Source: Sipunculus nudus
Lineage: Eukaryota > Annelida > Sipuncula > Golfingiida > Sipunculidae
Direction: 5' to 3'
Assembly (NCBI GenBank): GCA_026874595.1
Contig: CM049309.1
Location: forward strand, 9,697,076-9,761,075
Length of the DNA stretch: 64,000 bases
In this document: in pieces, positions 1,400 to 54,300 of the stretch
Layout: each line of letters begins with the position of its first letter
Position numbering within the stretch: the first letter of the stretch is position 1
Made by a program: the position numbers and the translations under genes
The notes under the pieces: generated by a model
The model's database searches: none
What the model was told of the DNA's origin: nothing
The model's input: only the letters and a program-made list of their open reading frames with translations

Positions 1400-2170
1400 A
1401 CTAGGGCCACACACAAAAAATAATTGTTCTAGGTTTGCCTACACCCATTTTTCATGGACTCAATTAAAATATTTTTTTAATGTGGAAATGAAGACCAGGT
1501 CCTTGGTAATGTAGCTTATTCAAGCTACCAGTATGACACAGAGTCCCACTAAGAGTTCTTACAGGTATGGAAAATGGACAAATTTTGTGTTGATCATATA
1601 CACCAGTTTTTGTATTTTGTTGGCAAGCTGGCAAAATTCCATGCAATATGTCTCGAATTATGAAAAAAAAACTTGCCTGCTCACACCATTTTTTTTGTTC
1701 CAGGAGCCTTAGATCAAACTTTTTTTTTTATGTGGCATAAGGTCATAGAACAAATCCTGAGATCCAAACAACCATGTCCCATAGAGTATTTGGTCAGATA
1801 TGATTATATATTAACTGTCTATACATTGAAAATGTTGTCAGCTAATCTGATATAATTCATTCTCTTGTACAATGAATTTTGACAATATCCTTGTTTGAGC
1901 AAGATGTTTACACCACAGAATGGTCCAATAAACTGTGAGCAGATATATCAGTATCACTGAGTTTCCATAAAACAAATCGGGACGGTATAACCACTTCAAA
2001 TAAACACATACTATAGACAAAATGGACAGAATTTCATAATGTAATAAACAAAGAAATATGTATCTATAATTATTCTTGTTCCCTATTCCAAAAGAAATGG
2101 ATTGCTCATTTGTGAAAATTCAAAGTTTCAATTCCCCCACGAGGAAGCCTCACTAACTTGTTTATCACCA
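1400..2170. other. Downstream flank without recognisable genes
   Basis: AT-rich sequence with several stop-rich short ORFs (at most about 60 codons) on both strands, none with domain-like composition. I see no repeat of note here apart from possible TIR remnants near 1311-1400 and a T-rich duplicated phrase around 1670-1740. Confidence 0.4.
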
Positions 2171-2173
2171 TTC

Positions 2174-2313
2174 TGACCCGGTTTGGGCACTTTGTCTTTG
2201 ATTCATGTTGTTGTGGGTTTTAATAAAGTTTTAGCTTAATCCTTATATTAAGCTAAAACTTTATTAAAACCCACAACAACATGAATCAAAGACAAAGTGC
2301 CCAAACCGGGTCA
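2174..2313. repeat. Perfect inverted repeat, 67-bp arms and 6-nt spacer
   Basis: Arms 2174-2240 and 2247-2313 are exact reverse complements (start TGACCCGGTTTGGGCAC, inner end GCTTAAT), separated by ccttat. The right arm is the start of the tandem repeat that follows, so the left arm is an inverted copy of that unit's end. Confidence 0.95.
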
Positions 2314-2830
2314 CTACTATTGTCTGAGATTTATTCATTACATCTTCAATTGAACAACATACCAAACATCACCAAATATGGGATGAGTAATTCGCAGGCT
2401 CGGTCGAGACGCGTTTTACCTTCCCACAAAAATAAAAATAAAAACCAAACAGAATAAAAGCAAAAACTACAAGGAACATAGAACAACTAACACTCAGGAA
2501 TACACAATATTTTAATAAAGAACAATAATGACATAAATCAAAGACAAAGTGCCCAAACCGGGTCACTACTATTGTCGGAGATTTATTCATAACATCTTCA
2601 ATTAAACAACACACCTAAAAGTCACCTGATATGGGATGAGTAATTCGCCGGCTCGGACGAGACGCGTTTTACCTTTCCATAAAATAAAAACCAAACAAAA
2701 CAAAAACAAAAATACAAGGAACACAGAACAACTAATACTCAGCAATACACAATACTTTATTAAAGAACAATAATAACACAAATCGAAGGCAAAGTGCCCA
2801 AACCGGGACACTATTATTGCCGGAGATTAA
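2283..2830. repeat. Tandem repeat of about 245-252 bp, just over two copies
   Basis: 'aagtgcccaaaccggg' recurs near 2295, 2547 and 2792 (spacing 252 and 245), with shared 'gatatgggatgagtaattcg' and 'gacgcgttttacctt' phrases inside. Possibly the end of a larger mobile element. The minus-strand ORFs across it repeat one another and are products of the tandem structure. Confidence 0.8.
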
Positions 2831-3540
2831 AACAAGACACAACTCTGGAAAATACATATTCACCGACACAACACCGATCCACTAACCAATACTAATACAC
2901 CCCCAATTAGAATAGAGCCATACTAAACCCATGTACAAAAAATGCACCATGCTGTTTTATACACCATTAACTTTTAACAAAAAAAAAAAAAAAAAAAAAA
3001 AAAAGAGCACAATCCATGTAAATACACCACCTCACTCATCATTTTTTCATGCACACTAACCCACGTTTTTTTATGATTTTTACCGGTTTTTCTCCCTTTT
3101 GTTTTTGTATTTTTCACAATATCGACGAAATATCTGGTTATCCGACGCTCATATATAAGATATAATTACAGATTTTATTAGTAATTTACAGCATCTCCGG
3201 CAGACCAGTGGCATGGAAACTGAAGCCGGCCACTAGCAAGTGGATGGAAACTGATGCCGCCACTAGCCTCTACTACCCCCGCCCCCTCCTCTCTCAGTCT
3301 GCGCTTATATAAAAATACTTCTTATAAGTATTTCCTATAAAAGTACATGATCGTAAATATCTCTTATAAATATTTATGTGATACTTAATATAAAAGTACA
3401 AACTGAGAGCTCTACCGGCCGGCTAGATTTCTAACTATAAAGATATCTCATATAGATATCTCATTCAGGCCAATATAAGGGTAAATGATCATGAGGTATT
3501 TTCTTAAAAAATCCCATGTGATACTTATAAAATTATAAAG
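2830..3540. other. Low-complexity, palindrome-rich stretch of unknown origin
   Basis: Contains a poly(A) tract (2980-3004), a duplicated 'ggaaactga-gccg-ccactagc' unit (3215-3270), then many short TATAAA/TATTTATA-type palindromes (3305-3460, including gatatctcatatagatatc near 3440-3460). No ORF of interest. It joins the tandem repeat on the left to the GC-rich island on the right, so all three may be parts of one insertion. Confidence 0.35.
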
Positions 3541-3843
3541 AAATCTACGGCCCCCCCCCCCCCCACCCCCACCAAGGACAACTACTACCCCTGACAACCA
3601 CCAACAGCAGCATCCGACACCGACGCGCAAGTCCTGCGGCAGCCCCCCTACACCACCAGCGGAAGATTAGAGGGCACCCAGACGAGCGCACACCCCATCC
3701 GCCCACTGACAGCAACTTCCAAGACGACTACCCAGACCTACACCGGGACAGCTCCAGACAGACCAGACAAGACCCCCAACAGTCCTCTTTAGGACTAACC
3801 CCCCAACAGTCCTATTTAGGACTAATCAATCACTGATCGACCT

Positions 3844-3879
3844 GGCAGCGGACAGACAGACAACTTTAGGTCCGCTGCC
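3844..3879. other. Hairpin A: 10-bp stem, 16-nt loop AGACAGACAACTTTAG
   Basis: Stem GGCAGCGGAC (3844-3853) pairs perfectly with GTCCGCTGCC (3870-3879) around loop 3854-3869. Partner of hairpin B. Confidence 0.85.
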
Positions 3880-4017
3880 TGCCACAAGACCAAGACCCAA
3901 GACCAAGCCTCAAGACAAGTCAAGACTGGTAGCCCTAGGACAAGCCAAGAGAAGACAAGACCACCCCGACAGCCGGAACCCAAGTCAAGACTAGCAAGAC
4001 AAGCCAAGAATCCCTGA

Positions 4018-4049
4018 CAGTGGGCAGACAGACAACTTTAGGCCCACTG
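4018..4049. other. Hairpin B: 8-bp stem, the same 16-nt loop
   Basis: Stem CAGTGGGC (4018-4025) pairs with GCCCACTG (4042-4049) around AGACAGACAACTTTAG (4026-4041). Compared with hairpin A, two stem pairs differ and both are changed on both sides (C:G to T:A, A:T to G:C). Confidence 0.85.
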
Positions 4050-4594
4050 CTCGGGGACCAGCTGAAGACCAAGCCAAGACAGCCTGCCCGATCCAAGTCA
4101 CAGGAAGTCCGGCTCTTCGCGGTAGAGGTTGTTCTGGCGGCGATCTGGGTTTCCCTGCTTGTGTTGGGGTCTCTCTGTTGTGGTGCGCATTCTGCTCGGG
4201 GATGTCGCTCGCGACCGGGGTCGTGGGGGCAGCGGCTTTGCTGCTGGTATCCGTGCGGTGAGTGGCCCGCTCGGGGCTTTGTGGGTGTGGATGATGTAGC
4301 TTTCACGGTCACCGGTGCGGGGGCGTGCTGGTGGTTTTCGCGGCTCCTTGGCTTGGCTTGTGTGGCAATTTTCGACATCAAAATTATAGTCTAAAGAGAC
4401 AGGCCGGGGCGGTGGTCCCAGACCACCTCAACCGTGTCTGTCTAGTGACTCAAAATACTAGTTCTAGACTAGTCACCATTCTCAACCAGAGGGCCACTGA
4501 GCTTCACTCAATCTTCACTAGAGGTAATTCTGCGTGTGATTGTAGAGTAGTGGAGTGACCTCTGGTGCAAAATGAGCTCTAATGCAAAGTTATG

Positions 4595-4608
4595 GCGCCC
4601 TCTAGTGG
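4595..4608 (-). promoter_or_regulatory. CTCF-like motif
   Basis: Minus strand reads CCACTAGAGGGCGC, very close to the conserved bilaterian CTCF core (CCASYAGRKGGC). Similar motifs occur at 36774-36789 and, weaker, at 18350 and 18555. Binding is not shown. Confidence 0.3.
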
Positions 4609-4619
4609 AAGAGTGGGAT

Positions 4620-6890
4620 ATCACAGGAAAAGGTTGTGCTTGGTTTCACAGGTCTGAATATCATGTTTAATATACACACAATTGAAGCAGCTCTCTCAAC
4701 AATGGATCTATTACAATATGATACAGGTTTCATTGGAGTGATGACAGACAATGCAGGTTCATTAATATCAAAATAAATATTAAAACAGGTTTTCACATTT
4801 GTCACTAAGATGCTGTTATCCGTTTGTATATATCAAATTCTGGTCTCAACACCATAATTATATTTAACCGTATTTAATTAAGCAAACTATAATGCTGCAC
4901 ACAAACTAACATCACACACAAATTTAGAATTTCTTAGTATAGTCATGCCATGATGCAAAAAGGTAACCATATTCTACATCCACCATAAACAGATATGCTT
5001 TAATATTTTGATATATGTCCTTTGTATATTTATTGTAAATATCTGACTTATTAATGACTACAAAAGTAACATTCAAGTACTGAGGAACTCAAGTTTTACA
5101 GGAATGCCCTTAACTAAACCCAAACATTGCAGAATAACACATTATATTTTAGTTCTTTACAAAATGATGTAAGGTCTTTCACAGAGTTTTCCTTGATCAT
5201 AACCGGCAAGACATGTGACACCTGGACTTAATGAAATGAATAAAATGTCATTGTTTCAAATACATATATATCAAATAAATCAAACAATATAATATTTTCA
5301 GGACATTTAAACTATTAGTGATAATCCAGAACCAACAATGACTTCCAACTTTTCAACAACAAGTTTAATACCAGATTTTCTATTCAGGAAAGGGGTTGTC
5401 TTATAGGAGTTGAATGACATTTTTAAAACAGATGGCACCACCATGTTGAATAGTGGTCGGGGTCCGTTTCCATTTTATAATCAATCATCAATTTGAATAA
5501 ACCAATCAATTAATAATCAGTTACGCTGAATTTTTCAATTATCTGCGACTCAATTTTCAAACTGTATTATTCATATTTTGATCCCTAAACATCACCAAAA
5601 CTCAATGTTATTTCTTAAGCTCATTCTGAAGTTAACTGCTTGAAATTTTCAGGAAATGTTATTAATATTCTGGGAGACTTTTCTTGGGTTGGTTGGGTGG
5701 TTGCTGGTTTGAGCATTTTTTTCAGGGCTTATTGTGTTCGATATTGACTGTAATCTATAGTTATCTTTAATAATCAAGCTCTAAATACTTCACAGGAGAA
5801 AGTAAATTATATATATCTTTCAAAGATTTGTATATACTACAGGTAATGTGTCAATGTTATTTATTATATCTAATATTTCAAAACCAAGTCTGTCCCACCA
5901 GTGGGCGCCAATCTGTTATTGGCAAAAAGTATGTACAAAGTGCATGTATTTTAAAAAGTTACATGTAGTTGATTAAACCAGGTACTCTGGCAATTTTTTT
6001 TATAACAAAACAAGCACCATAGCCTGTATATAAACTGAGTGAAGCTATTCTTTTAAAATATAAGAAATTAGTCGACTTTCATCATGACAAGGTGATTGAA
6101 GTGACAGGGTCAAGGACATCTTTTGACAGATTTTGATTGGCTGATGGTATTATTTAGTACCATAAATATGATAAATTACATCCTCAGCTGTAAGACGCCA
6201 ACTTGCAATGTCACTTCATGAGGAAAACTCCAGAAAGTTGCAAAGTATACATTTAATAAGTTGGAATCAAATATCTGATTCTCTGTTGCCAGATGCCAGA
6301 ATGTTCTGTCACTGTCACATACTGAACAGAAATATTAGCATTTAAATATTATCGCCAGAATCTGATGGGCGCCTCTAGGTGGTATAGACTATAGTGGCAG
6401 ATCTGATACAGATCTGGAATAAAGCAACAGGTTGATTCATGACAAAGATATTACACTGCATATTATAAAATATTCAAAAATGCACAAATAAAAAATTGTG
6501 ACTCTTCATAATCTTTTCATACATAAAACTTTCACTCCAACTTTCACTCTTACACATAGGTTTATATGCTCACTGTGCTGCCTATACCTTAAGTATTTGA
6601 GAAAAAAAACTTACGCAATATAAGTAACATCAGAAATTAAATATGAAAATGACCACCAGAGGACACTGATTACAGTTACCACTGACCAAGAATAAATTAA
6701 GCAAGAAAAAAGGAAACTCTATGTTTTACAGAATTCTCTCATGTTTATCTTAAATAAAATTTTAATAATCAAATGATTCATCACTCAACTGCTTGAAGCT
6801 GAAGCACTGAAGGTTTTTTTTTTTCAAAGGTAGGTCATGGTCTGTTGGTGTCCGTCTATTGCATGAGGATGAAGGTAACCATAAGAGTGA
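4620..6890. other. Downstream flank without genes
   Basis: AT-rich sequence. No ORF with recognisable composition, no strong repeat structure seen apart from scattered short TA runs. A palindromic 'caccagtgggcgccaatctg' phrase lies near 5898 and a 'gggcgcctctaggtgg' phrase near 6367. Confidence 0.4.
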
Positions 6891-7313
6891 TTTTTTTTAT
6901 TGTTTAATATTTTAAAATATTATACAGTGAAACCTCTCTAAAAGACCACCTCTCTTATAAGACTACCTGTCTATTAAGACCACCCTTGGGTGAACCAAAA
7001 GCATTCACATTGGTTATAACTGACCTGTCTCATAGGACCACCTGTGAATTAAGACACCTATTAGTCAGTCCCATAGGTGGTCTCATAGAACAGGTTTTAC
7101 TGTAAGCATTGGGCTTGATATATTCATAACTTGTGGGAATGACAGTAACAAGAATTTCTATTTACTTAGAAATTTACTTAGAAAATGGTTAATGGAAGGG
7201 AGTGTGCAACAGTGACCTCTGGTGTAGGTTAGGGAAACCATTTAATATAAGGCTGACGGCACAATATAACAAAGATGGTGCAGGGATAAGCCTTGTCAGT
7301 TGATATGATGACG
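6880..7313 (-). other. ERBIN/LRRC7: Probable 3' UTR of the LAP gene with two candidate poly(A) signals
   Basis: Downstream of the stop the minus strand carries ATTAAA at 7246-7241 (about 70 nt after the stop) and AATAAA at 6901-6896. Between them lies a short TIR element (6925-7102). Use of the distal signal would put the element into the 3' UTR. Which signal is used cannot be decided from sequence. Confidence 0.35.
6925..7102. mobile_element. 178-bp TIR element with TA target duplication (pogo/Tc1-like MITE)
   Basis: Begins CAGTGAAACCTCTCTAAAAG and ends AGAACAGGTTTTACTG; the ends are imperfect inverted repeats of about 27 bp, flanked by TA on both sides (6923-6924, 7103-7104). No ORF, so non-autonomous. 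Related copies at 1083-1245 and 33240-33417. CAGT termini and TA duplication fit the pogo/Tc1-mariner group. Confidence 0.8.
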
Positions 7314-7412
7314 TCACATTCTCTCCACCACCATGTTGACGATCTGACCCGTCGTACGTAGAGTATTCACTGCAGCGGTGTGTTCTATTGAGCTGAAGTC
7401 TACCTCATTTAC
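7314..7412 (-). CDS. ERBIN/LRRC7: LAP gene coding exon 22: end of PDZ and stop (aa 1284-1315)
   Basis: ATTATTTCAG|GTAAATGAG, then reads to TGA at 7316-7314; 99 nt with stop. Encodes [19 protein letters not shown] and ends [10 protein letters not shown]. His1294 at the first position of helix B predicts class I specificity (S/T-x-hydrophobic C-termini). The protein ends just past the PDZ, as in the vertebrate proteins. The stop codon lies inside a perfect TGACGTCA palindrome (7309-7316), probably coincidence. Confidence 0.96.
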   Translation of the reverse strand, partial: VNEVDFSSIEHTAAVNTLRTTGQIVNMVVERM

Positions 7413-10400
7413 CTGAAATAATCATAAATTAAAAATTAACATGACAACATTCGACTATGATTTCCATTTATCTATTAATGCCACAATAATTATCAATAGG
7501 GGCCAACACCCTTAAGCCATACATAGGTCATTTCTACTCGAAATAAATCTCTTTCAACAAGGTACCATGGGACAGCCAGGACCACTTATTTCAACTGTCA
7601 AACTTTATATAAAACTTTGTTACATTTCACCAAAACACCTTCTGTTTACATTTCATGTGCGAATGCTTGCAAAATAAAACTTATTCTGCAAAGTCCTTAT
7701 GCATATTCAATAATCAATATGATAATATATTCTATGAGTAGGTTACTGCATATTAAGATCGCAAAAATGGAACCCTCGGAAAACTATGAAAATCGTGAAA
7801 AAAATAGCCTTGTGAATATTAAGCAAACAACAGTATCATTATTAAAGTCTTTTACCATTAATGAGAGGAAATATTCTGATGCTATCAAATTCATCATGTG
7901 ATACACGACACACTGCTTACCTCTAACAGTTTATCCCCAACACGGAGGATGTTAAACGCTGGCCCCTCAGGCTGAACTTTGGTAATGAAGATTCCCTGCA
8001 AGATAACCAAACCATGTTAAATCGGTTTGCATATTAATAATACAAATAGGACCAATGTGTTTACAGATTTACAAAACATATGTAACGGTATATGTAAAAG
8101 ATTATTACGGATATGTTTGTAAAAAAGCAAAGAGATAAATGACACATATGCCTCAGATAACGTAAATTACAGTAGATTAAGTTAACATTAAGGCAAACTC
8201 TTGTCTCAACTTAAATTTGATCCATTTTTTAAAAGAGAATGTTAACCATAAAAGACCAGGATGTGAAAATTTCAAAATGACATTCAAGCCCTTTTTCTAG
8301 GGCTAGATCAACAAATTTTCTGCTCGAAACATCCAGTATTATTATACAGGGATATTAGACAAAACCATTATGAATTTTTGAGTTTATACTGTAATGTATC
8401 AATACACCAGAAATTCATTACCCCCTAAATATTACACCTACCAGGTCATCAGGCCTGAAAGGGTTGCCAGTTGATCCCAGCCCTCCAGCAATACTGAGAC
8501 CAAGACCAGAAGTCTTCTTCAGCTGAACTCGGAACTACAATCAGAGGGGAATTAATGTTGAGTATAACCCTGTCATTCACATGCTCTAAATACACATTAA
8601 AATACTGATGAATATCTAAGCAGGAACAGGAGGTTGTATTTTAAAAGGGTCCAATCACCCATCTGACCTTTATAAACTAAAGGTAATCCCTTGGAGCTTT
8701 TATAAAAATTTCAGACATTGTCATGTATTTTGATATTATTAGATCGCAAGAGTACTTTAGTGTTACTTTTTGCTTGAAATTGGGCACCACTTAAAAATCT
8801 TTAATTTTCAAATTTGTTAAAATTTTATATGAAAATTACTAAGAATTTCATTAATATTTACATACCAAAAGAAAGAGCTCTGTACCAAGTTTAAAACTGT
8901 ATATACTTTATGGGCTCTAACATGCATCTGAAACAGCTTTTGTATTGATTTTAAATTTAGGGGTTTTTGCTGGGTTGTTGCTTTAACCACTTATATTAGC
9001 TACGTCCCCCCTAAACATTTTAACACTTACCACATGGGGTTTCTTGTGGTTACTCTCTGCATCTGAGCCCATGCCGGAGTCGCCAGGGGATTTGCCTGGG
9101 GTACTTTCCCGAGACAACACGTAATTTGGTGGTTCAAGCTCGAGGGGGGTGGTCAGCTGATTGATAGCACCTTCTTGTTTAGCTGTGGTGTTCTCTCGCT
9201 CGGGAACATCTGTAAAATATAAAGTGTTTTTTCTTTTATCTCTGTCCTCATTACTCTGCCTGTACCTGGCCTTCTTGTGATTTGAAAATAAAAGATATCC
9301 TGATTTGTGAATACTCAGTTATAAATGCAATATAATTTAATCCTGTAATTAAGTGTCCCTTTTTTTATGTTGTCCGTTTCTTTATTACAAGGTCAGCCCC
9401 TACCAGAGGTCAATATATGTATATTTCAGCCTTCTGATGGAAACTGCTTCTGAGGCCAACCTCGAATAAAAAATTAATTCATGAAGTTTTTTTTAGATTC
9501 TTATATACAGAAAATTCCTTTACTGGCTTAATTAATAAGAAAATGTATAACTAGTTCTAAAAGGAATTTAAGGGAGCAGAAACAACAACAGTGGAACAAT
9601 ATGGGAACCAAAGTTATTTCTACCTGCAACCTTAATGTTATAAAGAATCCTTTCTCCTTATAAACCTATTTAGTCTAGTTCTCTATGTATTTATAAAGCC
9701 CAAAACACAATAACACGGGCGTCACGCTTCAGGCGTCAAATCTGGAACTAGAATATCAGCAGAAGCTGACAAAAGCCCTCAGCATAAAAGAACAGTGTTT
9801 AAAGGTGGTAACAGTAACAAGTACTAAATATCTGTTCTCAAATCGATGTATATCTATACATGTCTCAGTTATAAATTTAAAATGGAGAGGTATGTTCATT
9901 GATTCATAACAATCCACCAAATGCTTCCTGAAAAACAAGCTTCTCAGTTTTATTCTATTATAAGCTCTGTGACCTTGATAAGTAGGTCAAGGTCACCCAG
10001 CTTCGATCTTGACCGAGATTTTGTCGATATACATCTTCACCAAAGAAATAAAATTCCTATTGTGAATCCTTTTAGAGATATCCCGCTCACAAGGCCCAAG
10101 TTGAAAAATCCAAGAAAAATTCATTAAAAATCAGAAATTGTAGGTGGCGCCCCAAAATCTGTGCAGCAGTTACAGACCATCAGTCCCTATGATCATAGTA
10201 AGTATTGTGAAAATCCACCCAATGGTTCCTGAGAAATAAGCTTTTAAATGTTTTTTTCTATTATCAGCTCTAAAATGTAGAAAAATAGGTCAAGGTCACC
10301 CAATTTCGAACTTGACCGAGATTTTGTCAACATACATCTTCACCAAAAAAAATAAAATTCCTAAGGTGACTCCTTTTGAAAATCTGATAAAAATTCATTC

Positions 10401-13400
10401 AAAATCAGAAATTGTAGGTGGCGCCACCAAACTTGTGTAGCAAGTACAGACTATCAGTCCCAATAATCATAGAAAGTTTTGTGAAAATCCACCAAATGGT
10501 TCCTGAGTAATAAGCATCTAAGTGTTTTTCTATAATCAGCTCTAAAATGTAGAAAAATAGGTCAAGGTAACATCCAATCTGATGCATGTCATGCGCATTG
10601 TTGCTGTGTTAGTGTGTTTTGAATTATTTGCAAGCCTCGTGTGTGGTGCATGGGCCTTAGGCATCAAACAAGCCATACAAACAAACAGACCTACACTAGG
10701 AAGGCAGAATGAAGACAGATTGAATAATTCAACATAGTTGAACCTACCTGGGCACCTTGGTTTGAAGTCTTGTCCTTTATCAGGGTGACCATGAACATAG
10801 CCGCTGTCTGTGGAGCTTGATACCTGGGAAGGAGGCTCCTGTTTATACATCGCAACATCACGGTCGAACATCCCCGCCGACGAGGTCCAGCATTGTGGGG
10901 CAGCCAGGGATGCAGCCGCTGCAGCAGCTTCAGCAGCACCAACCGCTAAGGGAACACTGTTAATTTCATCATTTGTACTTTTATCATCCGTAAATAAGCG
11001 TCTTTGGCCTCTGTGGGAAGTATCACCAGGAGTGTCTCTGGATTTATCCTCAATTTGTAAACTGTCAGGTCGAACAACTGTTGTATTCTGACTGTCTGAC
11101 TTAGATTGACTGATATCTTGTGTGTGATCATCTGACCTTGAAGTCTCTGACCTTGGCAGTGAATTTGCAGGATCTCTGTGAGCTTGGCCTGCAGGACTTG
11201 GAGTTACGAGGTGTTGGTTGGAGGTCCTAAGAGGACTAGGCGAGTGGTGGTGCATTTTGGGTAACAAGTTTGGTGTACTGGCTGCCGCAGGCCCCGCCTT
11301 GTTAGGTGGAGTGTAGGGCGGGGTGGGCTTGTAAGGCGGGGGGTGAAACATGCTGCCTGCTGTTATGGCGACATCCTGACAACAAAAGGATTACAACATT
11401 TAATAAATTCTCTACATCTAGGAAACATCAGTTAATTATACATTTATATTACATTATACATTATACTCTTTCACAATCTATAATAGCAAGACAAACACAT
11501 TATGAAAGGTGCAAAAACACACGAAAATATGGAAACATTCGCTAGCTGAATAAACAGACTTGTTACTTGGGAAAAAAAAGATATGAAACCAATTAACAGT
11601 CAAGGCAACTAACTTATTGTGTACCATATATTTTCCTTGTAATATGGAATTAACACAACTATTCCTCAATATTTATGCATATGAGCATACATGGACAGAT
11701 TATTTACATTTACAAAAGAATTAATTCGAGAATATCTTTTGAAATATAGAGTATCGACTGCACCAATATTTTATACCACATATATTTGTACACTTATTGC
11801 ATAACCCTATATCTAACAAGTGATAAATGTAAAAGGAGTTTGTCGATTCCACCTTTGGTACAAGTGTGGACCCACCTGACTACAGGGATGTTGTGACTCT
11901 GTTTGATGAGGCGTGGTGGGCGTTGATGGACTTTTCTGCATCCTGACACAGGCTCTTTGTAACTGAGCCTTCCATGCATCATCTTCATTGTTTTCGTTCT
12001 GCTGTGGTGTCCTCTGGTGGTAACTTGTGGTACTACTATCTGGATTCCCTTGAGTAATTATAAGCGACCTTCTGTCTAATGAGTCGTTGGCCCCTCTGCT
12101 ACTGCAAACTGAACCTGCTCGCCCTGGACGTGAAGCAGTACTGGTGCTGCCCCCTGATGGAGGTCGGTCCTCCCTGTGTATACTTTGCCGACTTTGGTTC
12201 AGCTGGTCTGATTTATGAGACATCCCTGCCTGAGGCCTTTGTGAGTGATTACTGGCCAGACTGTATTGACTACAGTTCAGTGCTGAGTACTGAGTACTTC
12301 GTAAGTTCTGCTGAGAAGCTGTTGTAGTCCTCAAATTTAAACTTGTCTGGCTGGCAGGTCGGGGAGATTCATGATTACGCGGTCTAGGTGGCACCACTGG
12401 TTGCTGTGGTGCATTTTTACCACTAAAGTCAGTTTCATATTTTTCATCACAAGCAAGTGTAGATTTTTCACTTATGGGAGCGTTAGTGTACGGTCTTGGA
12501 GGACCATACTGCCAGCCCATTGAACTCATTGATCGGTGGCCAGATTGTAAAGGACGGTAATACGCATGCTGTCGTCTAATATGTGCCTCGGCGTCACTGC
12601 TATAACCAACTTCACTGCGTGTGGCCCGCGGCCTTTGATGGTGATGGTAACTGTGCTGTGACATCTTGTCAATATCGCTCAAGTAACCAGAACCTCGAAG
12701 ATCATGCCTGCGCTTACGGAACATTTCAAAATCACTGCGATAACCAGTGTCTGACTCATACCCATGACCTCTTGTACCAGGTCGGTGACCCCCCTGAGGC
12801 AGCCCTGACCTAGACCTCTGTATCTGACCCCTATAATGACCTTGAAGTGACCCTGACTGCATTGGTTGCATCAGACGAGGATCTGCAGTGGGAATTTTAG
12901 ACATTGAACCTTGATGACTGAGATGCGTGTTTGACTGAGTCAGATCTGTGTTAGATGCCCGGATCTTCCTCATGGATCCGCTCAGAAAGCCACCATCATC
13001 TTCTTCATCACCTGACTTGACAGCTGTTAATGACAAAGGCAACACTGCCATCATGTATCATAATCACGTCTCTCTCAAGTAATCTTAACTCCACTGATAT
13101 TAATCATTCCCGTAATTCACATATTTTTAAGCCTGGCATCTTATGCTACTATTTGCATCTTATCATTTTTTGGGTATTATTAATTACACCTGGAACACAG
13201 AAAACTATTGAATATACTTTTAAAATATATCTTAGAAAAAATTTTATATGAATTAGATGTGTAATTATTATACTGTACAAACAAAATTGTCAAACCGTTA
13301 TTGCTTTAAAATGGAGAATGCAAACTCCAAACTGCGAATTTAATTTTCAACAAAGTGCATCATCTTGGCAATCAGCTGGCAAGTCTGGAACTGGGGGGGG

Positions 13401-16400
13401 GGGGGGGTATATGATAAAACGTATTTTCTAAGCCTGTCAATGTGTGCTGGTGTGGAAGCCAAGCGGACATGGCTGAAAACTTGGACTAAGAATAAAATTT
13501 TTTATGTTTGATCAGTTTAAGGACCATACCTTTGGAATGTCGGATTCTTTCCTTATCTTTGGCTGCCCTTTCCTGAAATCAAAACAAGAAGATAGGTATT
13601 GAAATAGGAAATCCCTTCAAAAGTCCTATACCAATACAGGGCCTATTCAGATAAAACATAGTAATTATATAAACATAGTAATTAAAAGTAGGTTCAAAAC
13701 TCAGCAATGTTGATCTGGTGCCAGAACTACTTATATGAACATACATAGTGCAGGAATGACTCACTTCATGAAAATAAAACAAAGGTGATTTACAGTTTAC
13801 CGCTGCCCCAAATAAAATCTATCTTTATGAATGCTATACATGTACTGTGGATGGCTTATTTCCACATAATTATTGTTTCCCAAGGGTTCCCTTTTTGCGA
13901 TCTGCCCATAGTGTAAACTACATAGAGTATCTCCATTATTATATGATTAGATATATTATTTGATCTGTAGGCAAATCGTATAAGTTGGATGAAAACTCAA
14001 AGCAACATTTAACAAATGGGCATTATTGTTCATTATCAGCAGAATATTGAAAGATTTTATATCATTTATTATAGCAATCTTTGATTTACAGGTACAATGC
14101 AAGATCTATCATATTTATACATCAATATTTTGATTTACTACTTCCCTTCAATGATGGGGTCTCTTGTATCGAGGGTTTTGTTTTTGTGATAATTTCCCAT
14201 TGCAAATATTACAAATGTTTAAACATCGCGAACATAAAGGCAACCACAGTATTTGTTAAAACTATGTAGTTGTGTGTTGCAGGTGGTTTTGCTTATTTCT
14301 CAAACGGTTAATCTCATACCATTTTATCCACAATCATCTGTCCCCTAATTTCATAAAACCTTTACTTTCAAGATCTTAACAAAGTGAAAAAGATTCCCTG
14401 ATCAGAATCTACTGCTTTTAAAAGACAGGAAACCATCCAAATACATCATCACACAGAAATGTATTAGGTATTTTACAAAGTCAATAGTTAGAGTTGCTTG
14501 TAGACAATGATTGCATGCAAATACAGTGACATTCCACACACAAGTTGCTGATGGTACTAAAACTCAAACAGTCATACTAGTATATCACTGATTCACGTTA
14601 AAATATACAAAGCTGTTCATGCATGCTGCGACATTGTTTCTTATAATGATAATAATGAAAGCCTCATTATGTACAATTCAATTATACAACATTTTATACA
14701 CTTTTTCCTAAATAATAATCAGCGATGTAGGACTCAAGTCCAGACTTGGACTTGAGTTAATTTTTTCAGGGACTCTGACTTGTACTGAACAGTTCTGACT
14801 TGTACTGAACAGTCCTGGACTCAAGACATGTAGTGAACAGTCCTGGACTCAAGACCTTTACTGAACGGTCCTGGACTCGGACTTGTACTCAGACTCAGAG
14901 GATGACTCAAGAGATCAATTAATTTTTTATAGTTTTCAATGAATCCTAAGGAATTTGGCATAAATTGAAAAATCTCATGAAGGGTCATCACAGGTCTATC
15001 ACAGCCCCATCTATCAGAAACTATGCAAGTGCATCCAGCACAAGATCCAGTAATATGCTAGTGAACATTCATCAGCGAAACTGTCAGTCTGAGATGGGAT
15101 CTGTTGAAAAATTCCGACAAATAATTACTCATAAACGAACACATGCAAAACAACTTATCATATTATTCAACAATGATCATTCCAGACACACTTATCATTC
15201 CATGCAAATGTTCTCAAGTGATCAAAATGCACAACTGGGCAATGGTGTAACTCGGTGTAATTTTGTTAATATGATGCATCTATCCAATCATACCTTGTGA
15301 CACATCACACAATTGTTAAAATCCATTTTACCATTTCAAATTGAGTGATGTAACTCAAATACTTAATGTCAAGTCAAACCCTCCCCCCCCCCTTCCTTCC
15401 CAGTTTTTTCTTACACCATTACCCATAAATTAATGCACAAATAACAATTAAGATGCATTCAAAAACGAACAAATGAGGCTGTGTTAAATACAACCCAACA
15501 GAACCACAAACTGTTTAATATCAAGTCATTCAGTAAGTGAAGTGACTGTGGCATTCTGCTGTGTTACCTACATCTCATGTGGCTTGGAGGGAACAAAGAG
15601 ATTTTTAATTAAAATAATAGTCATTTATACACAAATACTCTCCAGGTCAAAAACTATACTCTATTCCAACACCCCTGTTCACCTATTTTTTCATAATAAT
15701 GGTTCATGAAATCTTATCTTTTTCACTCCAGGGGCTAATCAGAAATGTGCCAGTATCTAAAAGCAAAATAAGTCTCCCTTGTATGAACTGTACATAATTT
15801 ATTTAAAATCACATATGACTATTAGTCATTGACTAAACACCATTCCAACCCCCCTGTCCACCTGATTTTTCGTAATTATTTCCACACAAAACAAATTTGT
15901 CATACAAAACTTTCACAAATGGCAGAAAGAATAAAATGCATATTTTTTTTGTACCCTACCGGCTTATGATATAAATATTATTAAATTTACGCCCTGGTTA
16001 ACACATGTCTCATATATATTTGTGGTTCACGGCATCCCTAACAAGTGGCAATTGTTTATCCTCTTTGGATATGGATATAAATAAAGCACGCGGAGAATAC
16101 AAGTCTCGCTGTAAACAAGTGCCTCTTTAGTATGTCATGTCTATTATGACATCATCACTATTCCCTGATATACCCATTTTACAGATAAGTGGCAAAATGT
16201 TGCTACAGAGTAGACTAGTTACTCATAAAATCCATAATACTTAATTTTGCAATTTCCTCTTTCTGTCCTTAAAGCAAAAAGTTTTAAAGTTCTTTGAATT
16301 ACAAAAATATAATCGCCAAAAAACAGGTGGACAGGGGTGCTGGAACGAACTATAAACATATACAGGACTGCTGCACTGCTGTAAGAGCTGACCATCTTGA

Positions 16401-28400: not shown

Positions 28401-31400
28401 CAGAAAATCTCACATTTAACTAGTGACCTAATAATAGTCAGCAGCCTGTAAGGGAAAACATCATTGGTCAGAAACCAGTTGATCAGCATCTGATTGGCTA
28501 ACAGCTGCATGTTTAAACCAACTGAAGAGGCTGTATCATTATTCCACAAGTGTGGAGGCAAAAGCATGGTAAACCTGAACAAATTTAAAGAATAGAATGA
28601 CTTGGAATCCAAACTCTATTACTACTCATATATGTATCCTATTGTGTATCTAATATTGTGAGTGACATATCACAATACATATTTTATGATGAGATAATGT
28701 ATCCTTACAGACCTATATGACAATATGGTAGTACCATTGTCCTGATGCGTTTTTACTGATATTCCCATTTCACATTATATATCTATATCAGTTTATACAT
28801 GAACTATCCACTAACAGATACTATAAGAATTAAATGTATACACTCTTCACACAGCAGTTGTCCACCCTGGTGGTTGAACCCAGAGAACCTTGCCATAAAA
28901 AGCAGCAGTTATGAAAAAGGAGATCTGAGAAGACTGCAGTGTATAACCATTGTGTGAGGAGCACATTCAATATAAGGCCTAATAAAGCATCACAAGTGAA
29001 CTTGCAGTAGCAAATTTTAATCTGCCATAATAAACATGAAATTCCATATTTATCATTCATTACTGCAAACATAGGATCTGACTTTACTTCAATATAAGAC
29101 CTTTCTTATTTAAAGCATTAAGTAACTGCAGGCCCCAAGTGATACTCAACCTCAATACTTATTCCATATTGATAATTCATTAATGCAAATATAGTATCTG
29201 ACTTTACTTCAATATTAGACCTTCCTGGTTCAAAGCATTATGTAATTGCAGGGCCCAAGTGATACTCAACCATTGATCAGCTGACCTGGTTGTAGTCACT
29301 TATTGAACACCTGTTTTTTTTCAATGATAACTAACCTTCCAAAGCTCCCAGGCAGGTAATCGAGGAATGTGTCATTCAGGTAGAGTTCTGTTAAATTCAG
29401 CAGCTGCATGAACCCCTCCGGCAGCCTGGAAAAAAGTCACAGCATTGATTACAACAACACCAGGGATGTAACAATGCACTATGTAATCAATGTATTCCAT
29501 CAAAACCACTCATAAACTGATAATCAAATCAAGAATGTAAAAATCAGTTCATTTGAATTACTGCTTATACAGTAATTTTTCAGCTCACACCTATACTCTG
29601 TTTCAACACCCCTGTCCACCTATTTTTTTGCGATATTTCTTTCAATTGTTCTTTCTTTGCCATGACAAATTAGCTTTCATCAAAGGATCTAATGTGGTGA
29701 TTTGATGGTTTACACAAGCATGAAATAAATAAATTTACTTTGCGATGACAGGAAGGTGTTGACTTGTCTAGAAAGAGCTGCAAAAATAATGGCGTCAGTT
29801 TAAGTGGTCACATATCATGTTAATCTATGCATTGTAGGAGGGACGTATGTGTGACATAATAGACATATGACGTACAAATACCACTGCGACATCAATACTA
29901 CGATGGATGTAATTTTAGTCTGTAATCTTAGGTCATCACTGATATGTTGCAAGACCATTCATCTGTTCAGTCATATTTCTTTAGAGTATAATTTTGCTGT
30001 TAGATAATCGCCACATTGGACTCTTTTGCCTCTGGGGTAAATAAAGGTGAGCTTAAGTGCACGGTACAAAAATTATCATGTAAAATGAGGTGGACAGATG
30101 TGGTGGAATGGAGTACAGGAGGACATATAAACAATACACATAATGTACTTATAGCACCAAGTACTACTGATTAGCATGTTACTTTATATTCTTTATTACA
30201 GGTATGCACAATAATGCATGATATTATTTATTATATTAGATATGCTATGATAGTCATCTAAGCAACGCCTTAAGTTAACAGAAGACACTGAGTAGATATA
30301 TATTTCTCTGATAGAATACTAAGACTGATTGCAATCAATTAGCTTGTCAAAAATTGATAATCAATCAGAATCAAAGATACAATGTACCTAAGTATTCCGA
30401 TCTGCAAAGTTTATAAAATGTAGAGGGAAGCTACACAATCCATTCCAAAATGTTTGGTGCATTAAAATGGGCAATTATTTTTAAAAGTTCTGATTTGATT
30501 GCTTATTGTGTGAAATACCAAATACTTAACCTGCTGTCATATGAAACAATGATCATGTCATCTAGTTAATTTTCATGTATATGAGTGCATGTATTTAGAT
30601 ACTTCTAAGTTATAAAATGTGAACAAAGCTGAAAATACATTACAGTTTTCCAACATTTACTGATAGGAAATTTTCTTTTAAATGTGGGGTCAAGTAAAAT
30701 CCTCGTGTCATTCGGGCTGGACGACTTCTGGATGGACGACTTCGGGCGGGACGACATTCTGGATGGACGACCATCGGAATGGACGACTATTTAACTTAAT
30801 ACGTAATAAACGCTTGAAATGATGCTGATTGTGGGATTACTACCATGCAAGGATAACCTTGTGGCTATTTGGGTGTTGTTTTGATATTTTTATCGATTTT
30901 GTAACAGACGTGTGGCGAATATCACGGCCGCCTGCATGTCAGTATTGTCCAATCAAAATAAACGACCATTTGTTTAGATACTTATGCATTTACTTTGAAG
31001 AACAGTTACGGTGCCATTACTGTGTTGTTTGCATATTTTCATCAAATGTCTTAGTATACCCTAAGTAAGTAAATGTCACATGTTGCGATCTGTCTGTGAC
31101 TCACTGCCGATAGCAATGGACGACACATTCTGAATGGACGACGGTTTGATTAGATGGGCCAACTGACACACAAGTTAAATGACAGTGTTATACTATATGA
31201 TAGTGTTCGCTACTTTGTGTTTGCATTATTGGTATAACTAATATTATTGGTATTCTGTGCACTGTATTGTTAAATTTATTAAATATAAATTAAGAAAAAG
31301 ACTAATGGAATAAGAGGAACTGTGCTTATGGCTGCCGTCGGATTTTGATAAATTCACTCACTCACTCACTCACTCTCTCTCTCTCTCTCTCTCTCTCTCA

Positions 31401-34341
31401 TACTAATCGTTTGTCGTCCTTTCCCCCTCTTTTTTCTCTTTTAATAACATTTTATTTCCCTTTTGTTTTCAGTCTTCCTGCCTTTTTCCTTATTATCATT
31501 TTCTCTCATTCATTAATTCTGTCAATCTTCTAACTGACTTTATATTGGCTTTATGCCTGGTTGATTATGGATCCGTTAATTAGCACAAGCGCCGTGACTG
31601 AGAACCCAAAGGTTATTGTTAATACAACATTAATCTCATCAAGGGGGCAACAAAGGCATCAGTTAGCCTTTGATCACAAATCAAAGGGAATGGTGACAGT
31701 ACCAGCAATATCAGCTGTTTCATATTTTATTTTTATGAACAAAATGTTTATCATAAATATTGTCCTACTTTATATATATATCATTTATGTTTAATATATC
31801 ATTTATGTTTAATGTCACAGTATTGAACCTCGCAACAGGATGTCGCAAGCAACATGGTAATGGACAAAATTAACAACATATTAATGAAATCAATGACTTT
31901 ATAATATGAACAGGGTAAAGCGTTACTAATTATGTAATGATGTGGGTATAATTTTTTTAAATAAACAGAGTGAGAATTAGGTGTGTCGTCCAGAAACGTA
32001 AAGATTTACCAACGCAGATTTGTCCCTTACAATAATTATGCGCAATGCATCGATCCGCAGTTAACACACACAAACATACAGAGTGTACAAAACACATATA
32101 TAATTGTAGAAGAATCTTTATTAGTATAATTTATAATTTTCCGTAATCGGCATCAACACTCCGTTAGGTCTAAAGCAGGTCACCAGTCAGGCGTGTCATC
32201 CCACGAGGTCAGCTAGGCTGCGAGTCAGATAGCAACTCGTGACTGGAATTGTTTGAACATAGCTGCAGTTTTGCAAAAAGATCATCCAAATAGCCACAAG
32301 GTTATCCTTGCATGGTAGTAATCACACAATCAGCATCATTTCAAGCGTTTATTACGTATTAAGTTAAATAGTCGTCCATTCTGATGGTCGTCCATTCAGA
32401 ATGTCGTCCCGCCCGAAGTCGTCCAGCCCGAATGTAATCAAAATTCTTTGGGGTTCAGTAAATTTTCTGCCTAGCTGGGTCCCAGTGTCCGATAGAAAAT
32501 GTTGCCAATTATGAGCCCTGTATCAGGAACTTTTTTGTATATTGACTGTATCGACTATATGTATTATTAAATGTGTGCCATATACTGACTGTAATATATT
32601 AATACATTGGTCACATATGAATGGTTGGAGCCTGGCAGCTGCAGTCTTCAGTTTACTGCACATGGGGTAAATGCTCAATTACCTCTTACATAATCAATTG
32701 TAATACAATCTGCATAATCTGTTATCCAAACAAGGCATATACAAATCAAATTATTCCAAACCAATAAATTTACTTCAGTTCTTTGTGTTATTAATAGGCT
32801 AAATATAGCCAATATTGAGTGTGCTGATTGGCTTTAGCTACAGAAAAACAGATTTCAACAGTCTGTGTGTATTAGAGGGTTTAATAAGTTAATGCTTAAA
32901 AGTGATAACAGACGGCCCGATATATGTCAATGAAGAGAACAGTATAATGGACTGTAATGAAACATGGCAGATGTCTGTATATATCTTATTCAACCTAAAC
33001 AGTCAATCTGCACATAAAACAAAGCAGGGTGCTTGGCTACAGTATTATGGCAGCTCTCATTTATTTACTGCTTCCAAGCACTTTACATTACATTATTTCA
33101 TCTTTTTTTGTGTAGTATATCAAGCAAAGGCATGAAAAAAATCAACTGCTACTAGATAACCATGTTTATTATACTGTTATATCCTTCATAATGGTGACAG
33201 GTGATGAGTTTTTATGTACAAATTCTCAGAAAATTATAACAGTGAAACCTGTGTAATAAAACCACCTGTGGGTCTGGCCAAAAGTAGATTTAATTAACAT
33301 GTGGTCTTATCAGAAAACTTATCTATGACCAACCTGAAAGCTTTCATTTCACTCAAATGTTGTCTCAATAGACAGGGGGTCTTATTAGAAAGGTGGTTTT
33401 TAAGACAGCTTCCACTGTATATAAATTTTTCTAAGGATGGGGGGGGGGGGGATGTTAATTGGCATCTGAAGAGAGATGGTTTGGGAAGGTGTCCCTGCCA
33501 TGGCACCATTCAACTTTCAAATTTCAGCATAAAGTGGGGCAAGGTGGTAAATTAATGTGCTAAATATTTATTTTTTTCAAAGACTGCTGAATACCAAGCT
33601 AAAACATATTTTCCTTACATTCCAATGTTACATGCAATATTTTAATAAAACTCATGCTGCGTAATATGCACATATTTTTTGTATTCCCCCTCTAGGTCTG
33701 AATGTGTATACTTGTATGGCTACCCTCGCCCCCTTTACCCCAGTTCTATAGCCTGTGATATGGGGCAGCAATGTTTTACATATAACATTACTGAGTACAT
33801 TCTAATTAATGCATCACCTCGTTATAAGAATATACTTACTTCCCAAGAGGGTTGACACTGGCCTCCACAATACGCAGGTGCTTGCAGCATTTGATGTTGT
33901 CTGGCAGGCTCACAATACCTATAGAGAACAAATTATACCTCTGTTCTTAACCCTCTCTAAATAATTTATGCTTTAATTGGAACGCTTCCAATCATGTTAA
34001 TTATTATTTACACTGATACTTCCATTGTTTATCAGTGCTGTCTGGTTGTTTATTGTAACAAATAGAACAGATCATATAGGCATTGTTTACATTGCAAAAT
34101 CTCTTTATATACCCTAATCAAAGAGAAGATGTAGAATCAAACTGGTCAAATGACACTTCAGATAAAATGATAAGAATTCGGATAATAACAGACACTCAGC
34201 TTTCAGCTAAACATATATGAAAACTTTCTAAAACCCTTTCTGTACAACTCTCTAAGCATATAAATTTCACTGATTATAAAACAAGGTGCCTGTCATATAA
34301 CATATCTATTTTGCTCATGGTTTTACATTATATATGGGGGC

Positions 34342-51372: not shown

Positions 51373-54300
51373 ATGTTAAACAGGAAGTATTTACTAGGCT
51401 TGTAATTGTATTACACATGCTAGGCACCTGCTTCTAAGCCAATGGCTACTGTTCATACACATATCACTGTCAAAGATATTTTCTTGAAAGATTGCTTGAG
51501 ACAATGTATTTGATTGGATTTTCAGGATCCCTGCCCGATAGCTGTATTGTATTTACAAAGGGTCTAATATTCAATAATACACACCCTTTCACTGAAGTGA
51601 ATCTCAGGAAAATGTTCACAGCACTTCCTTAGAAGGTTCTTGAGAAAATGTGTGTAGAGGAATGAGGAACAGATCTGACTGATGGACAGACAGAAAATAT
51701 GTGTGCCTGCCAATGTGGGGCCAAACAATGATAAAGAATAAATAACAGGAGATCTAGAATATTGAATATTTAAGCAACAGGAGTTACAAATATTGGCACA
51801 GCTAATATTGTTTCTAAGCAGTTGATGTATTACAGAAGTAAATACCGGTTAAAATGTTAAGAAGTCACTTGACACCAGTAACCTTTTAAATCCTGCAAGA
51901 CCTGAGTATTGCTAATCATATAACAGTTGAGCATTGCATAAATAGTAATCATGCTGAAATGAATCTTCAGATCAATAGTACAACAGTTAACTGGTTGCTG
52001 TTTGGGACGCCCCCTGGACGCCCATCACAATTTGTATTTATAAGCCACGATAACGCACAATGGACTCACCGTCCTAATCGAATTTTCGATGCTAATTATT
52101 TGCGTTAAATTCTATGCCACGCCATTGAACATGTTTCCATAAGGTTCAAGGACACCCCTACTGTAAAGTTGATAGTTTTTTATTTTTTATTTCGTGCTTT
52201 GACAAATCTCAGAATATGTTTTGAACAAAATAAATATGAAAAGATGTTCAATAAAGTTTACTAACTGAAATTCGAGAATGTTTATTATGTCTTAAGATTA
52301 AAAAAAGACGTCTGACATCGTTTTGACACTGTTAACCATCATGCAATTCCTCCGGGATTCCCCGAAAAAACTGTCACCGGGCGACAAAAAGGGAAATACA
52401 CGCTTTACCGGGAGTACCAAAATGATCTAAGTTAACATTACAAAGGTTGAAATACTTTTATAAATGTTAGATTTTACCATTCTGGTGGACTTCTGGTTAT
52501 TTTCGTGGGGTTTTATACATATTTTATGGATAAATCTGTGAGTTTACATTTTTTGTCACCTTCCTTTGAAGTTCACCTGGTCTTAATTAGATCTTCATAC
52601 CTGAACAGGTAAGCAATTGTTATTTATCCTTATATGAAATCAACATGATATTTCATGTCAAATATACAAGTATTATTTTTTTATAAATTTCTTCGAACAA
52701 ATCATATATGGTTTTGTCTAATTTATTTCAGAACTCCCCACCTATAATTACTTAAATAAGCTTAATCATATTTCATTAACCTATTTTACCTAGATCTTCC
52801 ATGACAATACACCAGGCACCATCGGATGACAATTCCCTTATTGTTCCTAAATTCTACAATGTCTTCACTGGGATATACTATAGACATTCATGTACAAATA
52901 TGCTAAAAACAACAAAGACAATATACTTACCTGAATTTACCTGGTTCTAATAATAGATATATGTGAAATTTATGATTTGTTTAGTCATTAACCTCTTGCT
53001 TGGTATCTCTGTAATATGTGTTAAAAATTTCATAAGGATCCACCAAAAATTGATCACATTATCAGTCATAACATTAATGTACAGTGTGTCAAAATTGAAA
53101 GTGTGAGGAACCTAGAATTTATCTGAACAGTAAGGGGGGTATTTTATGACAACCAAATAAGGTAAAGGGTTAATGATGCTTATGTAATATCTCAAAAAGA
53201 GTTAATGATGCTTATGTTATATTTCAACTAGAATATCAGCAGAAGCCCTCAGCCAAAAGAACAGTGTTTAGAGGTGGTAACAGTAACAAATACTAAATAT
53301 CTGTTCTCACATGGATGTATATCTGTACATGTCTCAGTTATAAATCTAAAATGGAGAGGTATGTACCATGATTCATAACAATCCACCAAATGCTTCCTGA
53401 AATATAAGCTTCTATGTTTTATTCTATTATAAGCTCTGTGACCTTGAAAAGTAGGTCAAGGTCACCCATCTTCGAACTTGACCGAGATTTTGTCCATATA
53501 CATCTTCACCAAAGGAATCTTCACCTATTGTGAATCATTTAAGAGATATCCCGCTCACAAGGACAAAGTTGAAAAATCCAAGAAAAATTAATTAAAAATC
53601 AGAAATTGTAGGTGACGCCCCCAAAACTCATGCAGCAGTTACAGACCATCAGTCCCTATGATCATAGTAAGTATTGTGAAAATCCACCAAATGGTTCCTG
53701 AGAAATAAGCTTCTAAATGTTTTTTCTTTAATCAGCTCTAAAATGTAGAAAAATAGGTCAAGGTCACCCATCTTCGAACTTGACCGAGATTTTGTCAATA
53801 TACATCTTCACCGAAAAAATAATATTCCTACGGTGAATCCTTTTAGAGATATCCCACTCACAAGCCCAAAGTTGAAAAATCCGATAAAAATTAATTAAAA
53901 ATCAGAAATTGTAGGTGGCGCCACCAAACTTGTGTAGCAGGTACAGACTATCAGTCCCAATAATCATAGTAAGTTTTGTGAAAATCCACCAAATGGTTAC
54001 TGAGTAATAAGCATCTAAGTGTTTTTCTATAATCAGCTCTAAAATGTAGAAAAATAGGGCAAGGTCACCCATCTTCGAACTTGACCGAGATTTTGTCGAT
54101 ATACATCTTTACCTAGGAAATAAAATTCTGACGGTGAATCCTTTTCAAGATATCCCGCTCACAAGGTAAAAGTGAACGGATGCCGGCTGGACGGACGGAC
54201 GGACGGACGGACGGACAGCTTGGGTGACGACAATAGCCCATCAGCCTAAGGGCTGAGGGCTAAAAAGGGTTTATGATGCTTATGTAAAATCTCAAAAAGA

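Follow-up and report, generated by a model that had tools for sequence, protein, structure and literature searches.

A truncated LINE copy holds both hairpins

The window, the whole 64-kb stretch that we analyzed (C4:9697076-9761075 of the Sipunculus nudus genome), contains at 2174-4472, on the plus strand, a 5'-truncated LINE copy that consists of 3' UTR only and holds two hairpins, A (3844-3879) and B (4012-4056). Its limits are given by the end of homology to dispersed copies, by the right ends of 18 copies and by a target-site duplication, TCACCATTC, whose left (2165-2173) and right (4473-4481) occurrences are exact 9-bp repeats lying flush with both ends of the copy. The first 70 nt (2174-2243) are on the minus strand and match the reverse complement of 2244-2313 at 67 of 70 positions, with 67-bp arms; such an inverted 5' end resembles the picture left by twin priming. 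It is followed on the plus strand by 2.3 copies of a 245-nt tandem repeat (2258-2828), also present in other copies of the element, and by an internal A-run (2979-3004) whose position is shared by three copies on C5. A hairpin scan adds two small hairpins related by a 27-nt tandem duplication, AGTCCT-CTTT-AGGACT (3781-3796) and AGTCCT-ATTT-AGGACT (3808-3823). Downstream of A and B, a 3'-terminal hairpin occupies 4396-4443 (fold z of -4.75 for 4380-4480), and the copy ends in short CTAG-type repeats (4457-4472). The distance to the LINE 3' end is 611 nt for A and 439 nt for B.

The 3' UTR is mostly G-poor, with the last 360 nt being G/T-rich; a reading of the skew switch near 4110 as a bidirectional promoter was dropped after the LINE was found. 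In the frames tested, the protein reading of the window copy matches no Pfam family at the curated cut-off, and we take the copy to be dead. The same 3' UTR also carries three AT-rich hairpins (3313-3333, 3355-3375, and 3441-3461) with nearly one 5-nt loop, in which three pairs are changed on both sides, a number that 33 of 500 column shuffles reach.

Identical loops and compensated stem differences

Fold and sequence comparison assign hairpin A a 10-bp stem and hairpin B an inner 8-bp stem (4018-4049) extended by an outer stem with one bulge. An earlier note on this DNA had described both hairpins with an identical 16-nt loop, and we find them in place, with loop identity of 16/16. The unit common to A and B measures 38 nt (3841-3878 and 4013-4050), of which 33 are identical. 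Four of the five differences make up two compensated pairs among the eight of the inner stem, as had been observed before; the fifth, overlooked at that time, is an uncompensated difference at column 5 (G versus A) that gives a G-C pair in A and an A.C mismatch in B, where the bulged outer stem takes over. Local alignment stops at the edges of this unit, and the 100-nt flanks are mostly unlike, as previously claimed (31/100 and 32/100 identical in register). Their gapped similarity is slightly above that of shuffles (12/1000 and 1/1000 as good), for which C/A-rich repeats may be the source.

Both hairpins fold well on both strands, with z scores of -4.4 to -5.3 for the four folds and, for each fold, none of 200 shuffles scoring as well. 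Within the 64-kb window, A/B is the sole hairpin pair that combines an identical loop of more than 5 nt with covarying stems: the other entries in a list of 15 hairpin pairs are 13 with unchanged stems and one with a 4-nt loop, and 20 shuffles yielded 0 to 2 pairs each. When four random substitutions are placed in the 32-nt core, pairing and loop survive in 178 of 2,000,000 trials, or in 1,469 of 2,000,000 if only transitions are allowed. The invariance of the loop is weak when judged from A versus B alone (Fisher p of 0.05 by position and 0.10 by event). A covariance model finds no third copy in the window (best other E, 1.3), and it also scores A and B on the opposite strand (E of 0.017 and 0.078).

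Pairing of the loop with a downstream site in the same RNA appears highly improbable. The site, 4435-4443, holds the exact complement of the first 9 nt of the loop and is its best plus-strand target in the window (ranks 1 and 2 of 6,397 stretches), but equal local targets exist for 37 of 300 shuffled loops and, when native 16-mers from the C/A-rich part are used instead, for 111 of 134. This is near chance, and the candidate was rejected.

The loop marks a dispersed LINE family

A search of the genome for the exact loop covered 1,426,538,692 bases (1.43 Gb) and returned 182 exact sites (63 forward and 119 reverse), against 2 forward and 0 reverse sites for the loop read backwards. Among the 100 sites listed, many are paired, usually at the 172-nt spacing seen in the window, with other spacings of 173, 177, 181, and 192 nt. 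Clusters are found on C3 (12.95-13.27 Mb), C5 (80.1 Mb), and C2 (25.1 Mb, recurring every ~7.1 kb). The part downstream of B (4080-4470), used as a query, gave 385 first-look candidates in the genome (the top 40 were scored) and an additional cluster on C14 at 19.2 Mb. We observe that C3:12.95-13.27 Mb and C14:19.16-19.29 Mb form dense intrachromosomal clusters of LINE copies, which may be either full-element arrays or segmental duplications. Many sites are interior to chromosomes (e.g., C4 at 9.7 Mb and C3 at 13 Mb), and two, C1:91537 and C1:110774717, lie less than 140 kb from contig ends. All sites with flanks read belong to one LINE family except L097, which has the exact loop in flanks unlike the family and which we regard as a chance match. 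The loop also occurs at 12 sites in viral and 33 sites in prokaryotic collections, none with a stem longer than 2 bp, which we attribute to chance.

The element that hosts the hairpin pair is a LINE (non-LTR retrotransposon), some copies of which are arranged head to tail. Beside the hairpin region, domains of an APE-type endonuclease and of a reverse transcriptase are found in L070, and a reverse-transcriptase domain in L071: L070 (Pfam Exo_endo_phos_2, 2.5e-21; RVT_1, 4.1e-27) and L071 (RVT_1, 9.8e-42). The reverse-transcriptase frame precedes the hairpin region in L071. In L070, a long frame comes after the hairpin region, and then the endonuclease and reverse-transcriptase frames, which are broken into pieces; the long frame, a putative ORF1, has a weak zinc-knuckle match (zf-CCHC_4, 2.1e-4; zf-CCHC, 0.0065), both scores being below the curated cut-off.

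The window was aligned with fourteen 10-kb stretches, each surrounding a copy. Their main pieces are 83 to 98% identical to it, and all 14 have a sharp right end at 4466-4474; the 245-nt repeat region is matched in 13 of them (not in L069), with some pieces down to 69%. All 18 right ends read, namely, those of the window, of the 14 stretches (two in L067), and two in L079, stop at one point in or just after the short CTAG-type repeats, a set that includes duplicates of single insertions (L067a/b and L071/L076). Apart from these duplicates, the sequence beyond the right ends is unlike between copies. Left ends vary, that of L069 lying at window position 3801. Target-site duplications appear in five of eight copies tested (window, 9 nt; L065, 7 nt; L066, 10 nt; L072, 16 nt; L078, 8 nt) and are not clear in L069, L070, and L077; in this test, run without a shuffled control, several left ends were estimated from alignments, and the duplications of 7 and 8 nt are weak evidence by themselves.

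On C5, a ~9.0-kb unit (5682 to 14680 in joined coordinates) extends from 5' UTR across the frames as far as the 3' end; immediately ahead of it is a 3' UTR copy, and a second 3' end/5' UTR junction follows further on. Since right ends are fixed and left ends vary, we read this stretch as head-to-tail LINE copies, a reading that replaced that of its repeated 3.2 kb as an LTR or Penelope-like element. The mark of Penelope-like elements is a GIY-YIG endonuclease, and the one found here is of the Exo_endo_phos type. We therefore regard as established a LINE family with endonuclease and reverse transcriptase, a fixed 3' end, variable 5' ends, and target-site duplications, of which the window copy is a 5'-truncated insertion. 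The earlier suggestion of an unrecognised mobile element is thus borne out, the element being a LINE that is unnamed in the window; a packaging signal, also suggested, is not supported, the hairpins lying in a LINE 3' UTR.

Several copies have neighbors of note. In L067 (C2:25084001-25094000), genes for tRNA-Asp and tRNA-Val lie in a tandem unit of 7.07 kb, together with a LINE 3' UTR copy that stops inside the tRNA-Asp sequence or at its edge and has been amplified with it. In the right flank of L075, after 5656, the LINE copy stops just before a frame that by eye starts like histone H3 (MARTKQTA). A frame with a NADAR domain (Pfam, 4e-49) occupies 1735-2328 of L070, just upstream of the head-to-tail copies on C5.

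Stem and loop divergence among copies

In 41 copies picked for having the exact loop in at least one hairpin, a choice that lowers divergence near the loops and includes segmental duplicates, the letters that differ from the window copy amount to 2.4% for stem A, 1.9% for stem B, 1.5% for loop A, and 3.8% for loop B, compared with 4.4% for the linker, 4.5% for 3005-3770, and 5.8% for 4057-4390. The stems are thus less divergent than their surroundings (~2% versus 4 to 6%) in this loop-biased sample. The 3'-terminal hairpin is free of the bias, and its stems show the lowest value of the parts measured, 0.9% (5/579 letters), with only 579 letters available since many stretches end before 4396-4443. 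The loop is less rigid than the "frozen" one of the earlier note: among 37 readable copies, 25 carry G, 11 carry A, and 1 carries T as the second loop base of hairpin B.

Changes in the stems amount to 1 compensatory, 4 wobble, and 6 broken of 342 pair-cells in hairpin A and to 1 compensatory, 0 wobble, and 7 broken of 333 in hairpin B. Of the total of 675 pair-cells, 13 are thus broken, against 2 compensatory and 4 wobble; mostly disruptive changes are what is expected in dead copies after insertion, and they say little on the active lineage. Both compensatory cells, one per hairpin, fall in L093, which is only ~70% alike and has retained the two hairpins with uncompensated changes (A.A and G.U in A, C.C in B). 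L082, another far copy, has the exact loop in B and folds neither hairpin. L098 has a perfect A, with no B found in its stretch. A hairpin-independent sample of 12 copies from 11 loci shows 0/432 changed letters in stems, 1/384 in loops, 1/1656 in the linker, and 55/5091 in 4050-4474; these copies are too alike to test anything, and the elements L109 and L110 were already in the first sample.

The main rival to selection, which we consider fairly unlikely, accepts the LINE 3' UTR and ascribes the covariation to template-switch (quasi-palindrome) mutation, in which one arm is copied onto the other and hairpins stay perfect without function. Such events can create perfect stems and help maintain them, the evidence for maintenance being called "circumstantial" by the authors (PMC8794818). 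This reading accommodates the other duplicated hairpins of the same 3' UTR (3207/3239, 3781/3808, and the AT-rich trio at 3313, 3355, and 3441), the prevalence of pair-breaking changes at the copy level, and the loss of both hairpins in L082. However, it predicts neither a lower divergence of stems and loops than of the linker nor the retention of both hairpins in L093. Overall we see a moderate case for selection on A and B. Selection on a folded RNA, as the earlier note had it, stands as the better reading for the active lineage, given the lower stem divergence and the L093 compensatory change in each hairpin, but does not extend to the window copy itself, a truncated insertion with no Pfam-matching frame at the curated cut-off.

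Protein-read hairpins as the preferred explanation

We favor, with a probability of about 0.6, the interpretation that the pair forms part of the LINE 3' UTR as RNA hairpins that a protein recognises and that the active lineage has kept. The LINE RNA, which corresponds to the plus strand here, would present A and B as two isolated hairpins separated by a C/A-rich, little-structured linker. Their loop could be read by an element protein (ORF2 or ORF1) or by a host factor, and the stem would need only to pair; it would then drift by compensated changes, with little change in the loop. Initiation of target-primed reverse transcription would fall to the 3'-terminal hairpin, and A and B would act as upstream duplicate docking sites. 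For recognition by the reverse transcriptase, 4396-4443 appears to be the best candidate site and a better one than A/B.

The closest known parallel is offered by stringent-type LINEs (UnaL2, ZfL2-1, and ZfL2-2), which share the endonuclease and reverse transcriptase, a conserved 3'-end hairpin, and a short-repeat 3' end (PMC4176376). These elements need a 3'-tail stem-loop that ORF2 binds, the stem generally and the loop specifically; in zebrafish LINEs the loop gives this specificity, their known mode being loop-specific reading with an exchangeable stem (PMC4176376). That mode predicts a slow loop on a drifting paired stem, as seen in A versus B. The conserved 3'-tail stem-loop that marks the stringent type is found here at 4396-4443, in contrast to A and B, two more hairpins with one loop whose distances upstream of the 3' end are 611 and 439 nt. 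This upstream position speaks against our preferred interpretation, as do the uncompensated changes in L093, the failure of L082 to fold either hairpin, and the loop-biased, partly non-independent sample of 41 copies.

The telomeric LINEs HeT-A, TART, and TAHRE resemble the family in a long, mostly G-poor 3' UTR and in head-to-tail copies, like those on C5, where the 3' end of one copy abuts the 5' UTR of the next (PMC5537684). In contrast to their telomeric site and poly(A) end, the present family occupies many interior sites and has CTAG-type ends in 18 copies, with a G/T-rich last 360 nt.

Folded RNA signals are expected in the tail region of a LINE, and structured RNA in a LINE 3' UTR is of a known kind; the pair is real and largely familiar in kind. 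To our knowledge, a loop-identical pair at near-fixed spacing is unusual. One literature search yielded no paper on such a duplicated loop-identical pair, and the loop string, its RNA form, and the complements are absent from the set of papers searched. It is quite unlikely, in our estimate, that the pair, at its near-constant spacing of 172 nt, forms a two-site docking platform for one protein in a LINE that also sits head to tail inside a chromosome; we know of no LINE with such an arrangement.

Docking of a host protein involved in RNA export, stability, or translation seems improbable. A pair of like loops at a distance from the 3' end would suit it, as would the C/A-rich linkers, mostly unpaired in the centroid fold, and retroviral transport elements, which have two like loops, are comparable in that one RNA carries the loop twice. 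Against it, no Rfam family reaches the gathering score anywhere in the window. At E up to 10 in 2000-5000, none lies over A or B, the miRNA matches being the palindrome at 2174-2313 and three others scoring far below cut-offs. In eight 10-kb loci, Rfam yields only tRNAs, in one locus.

An anonymous covarying hairpin is now placed in a LINE with 182 exact loops and 385 first-look candidates in one genome, natural variants enough to ask which RNA features a LINE protein needs. If A and B are bound, recognition of LINE RNA would extend well beyond the 3' tail.

Other features of the window

Just outside the LINE copy, 4489-4611 contains CTCF-like motifs, with CCACTAGAGGGCGCC on the minus strand at ~4595-4610 and two weaker ones at 4516 and 4558. 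At 30711-32432, ~1.7 kb that starts with short tandem units containing GGACGAC lies between inverted repeats (157 nt, 95%) and is probably a non-autonomous DNA transposon. Finally, a dispersed tandem repeat occurs twice, at 9746-10571 and 53226-54068, the copies being 88.6% alike.
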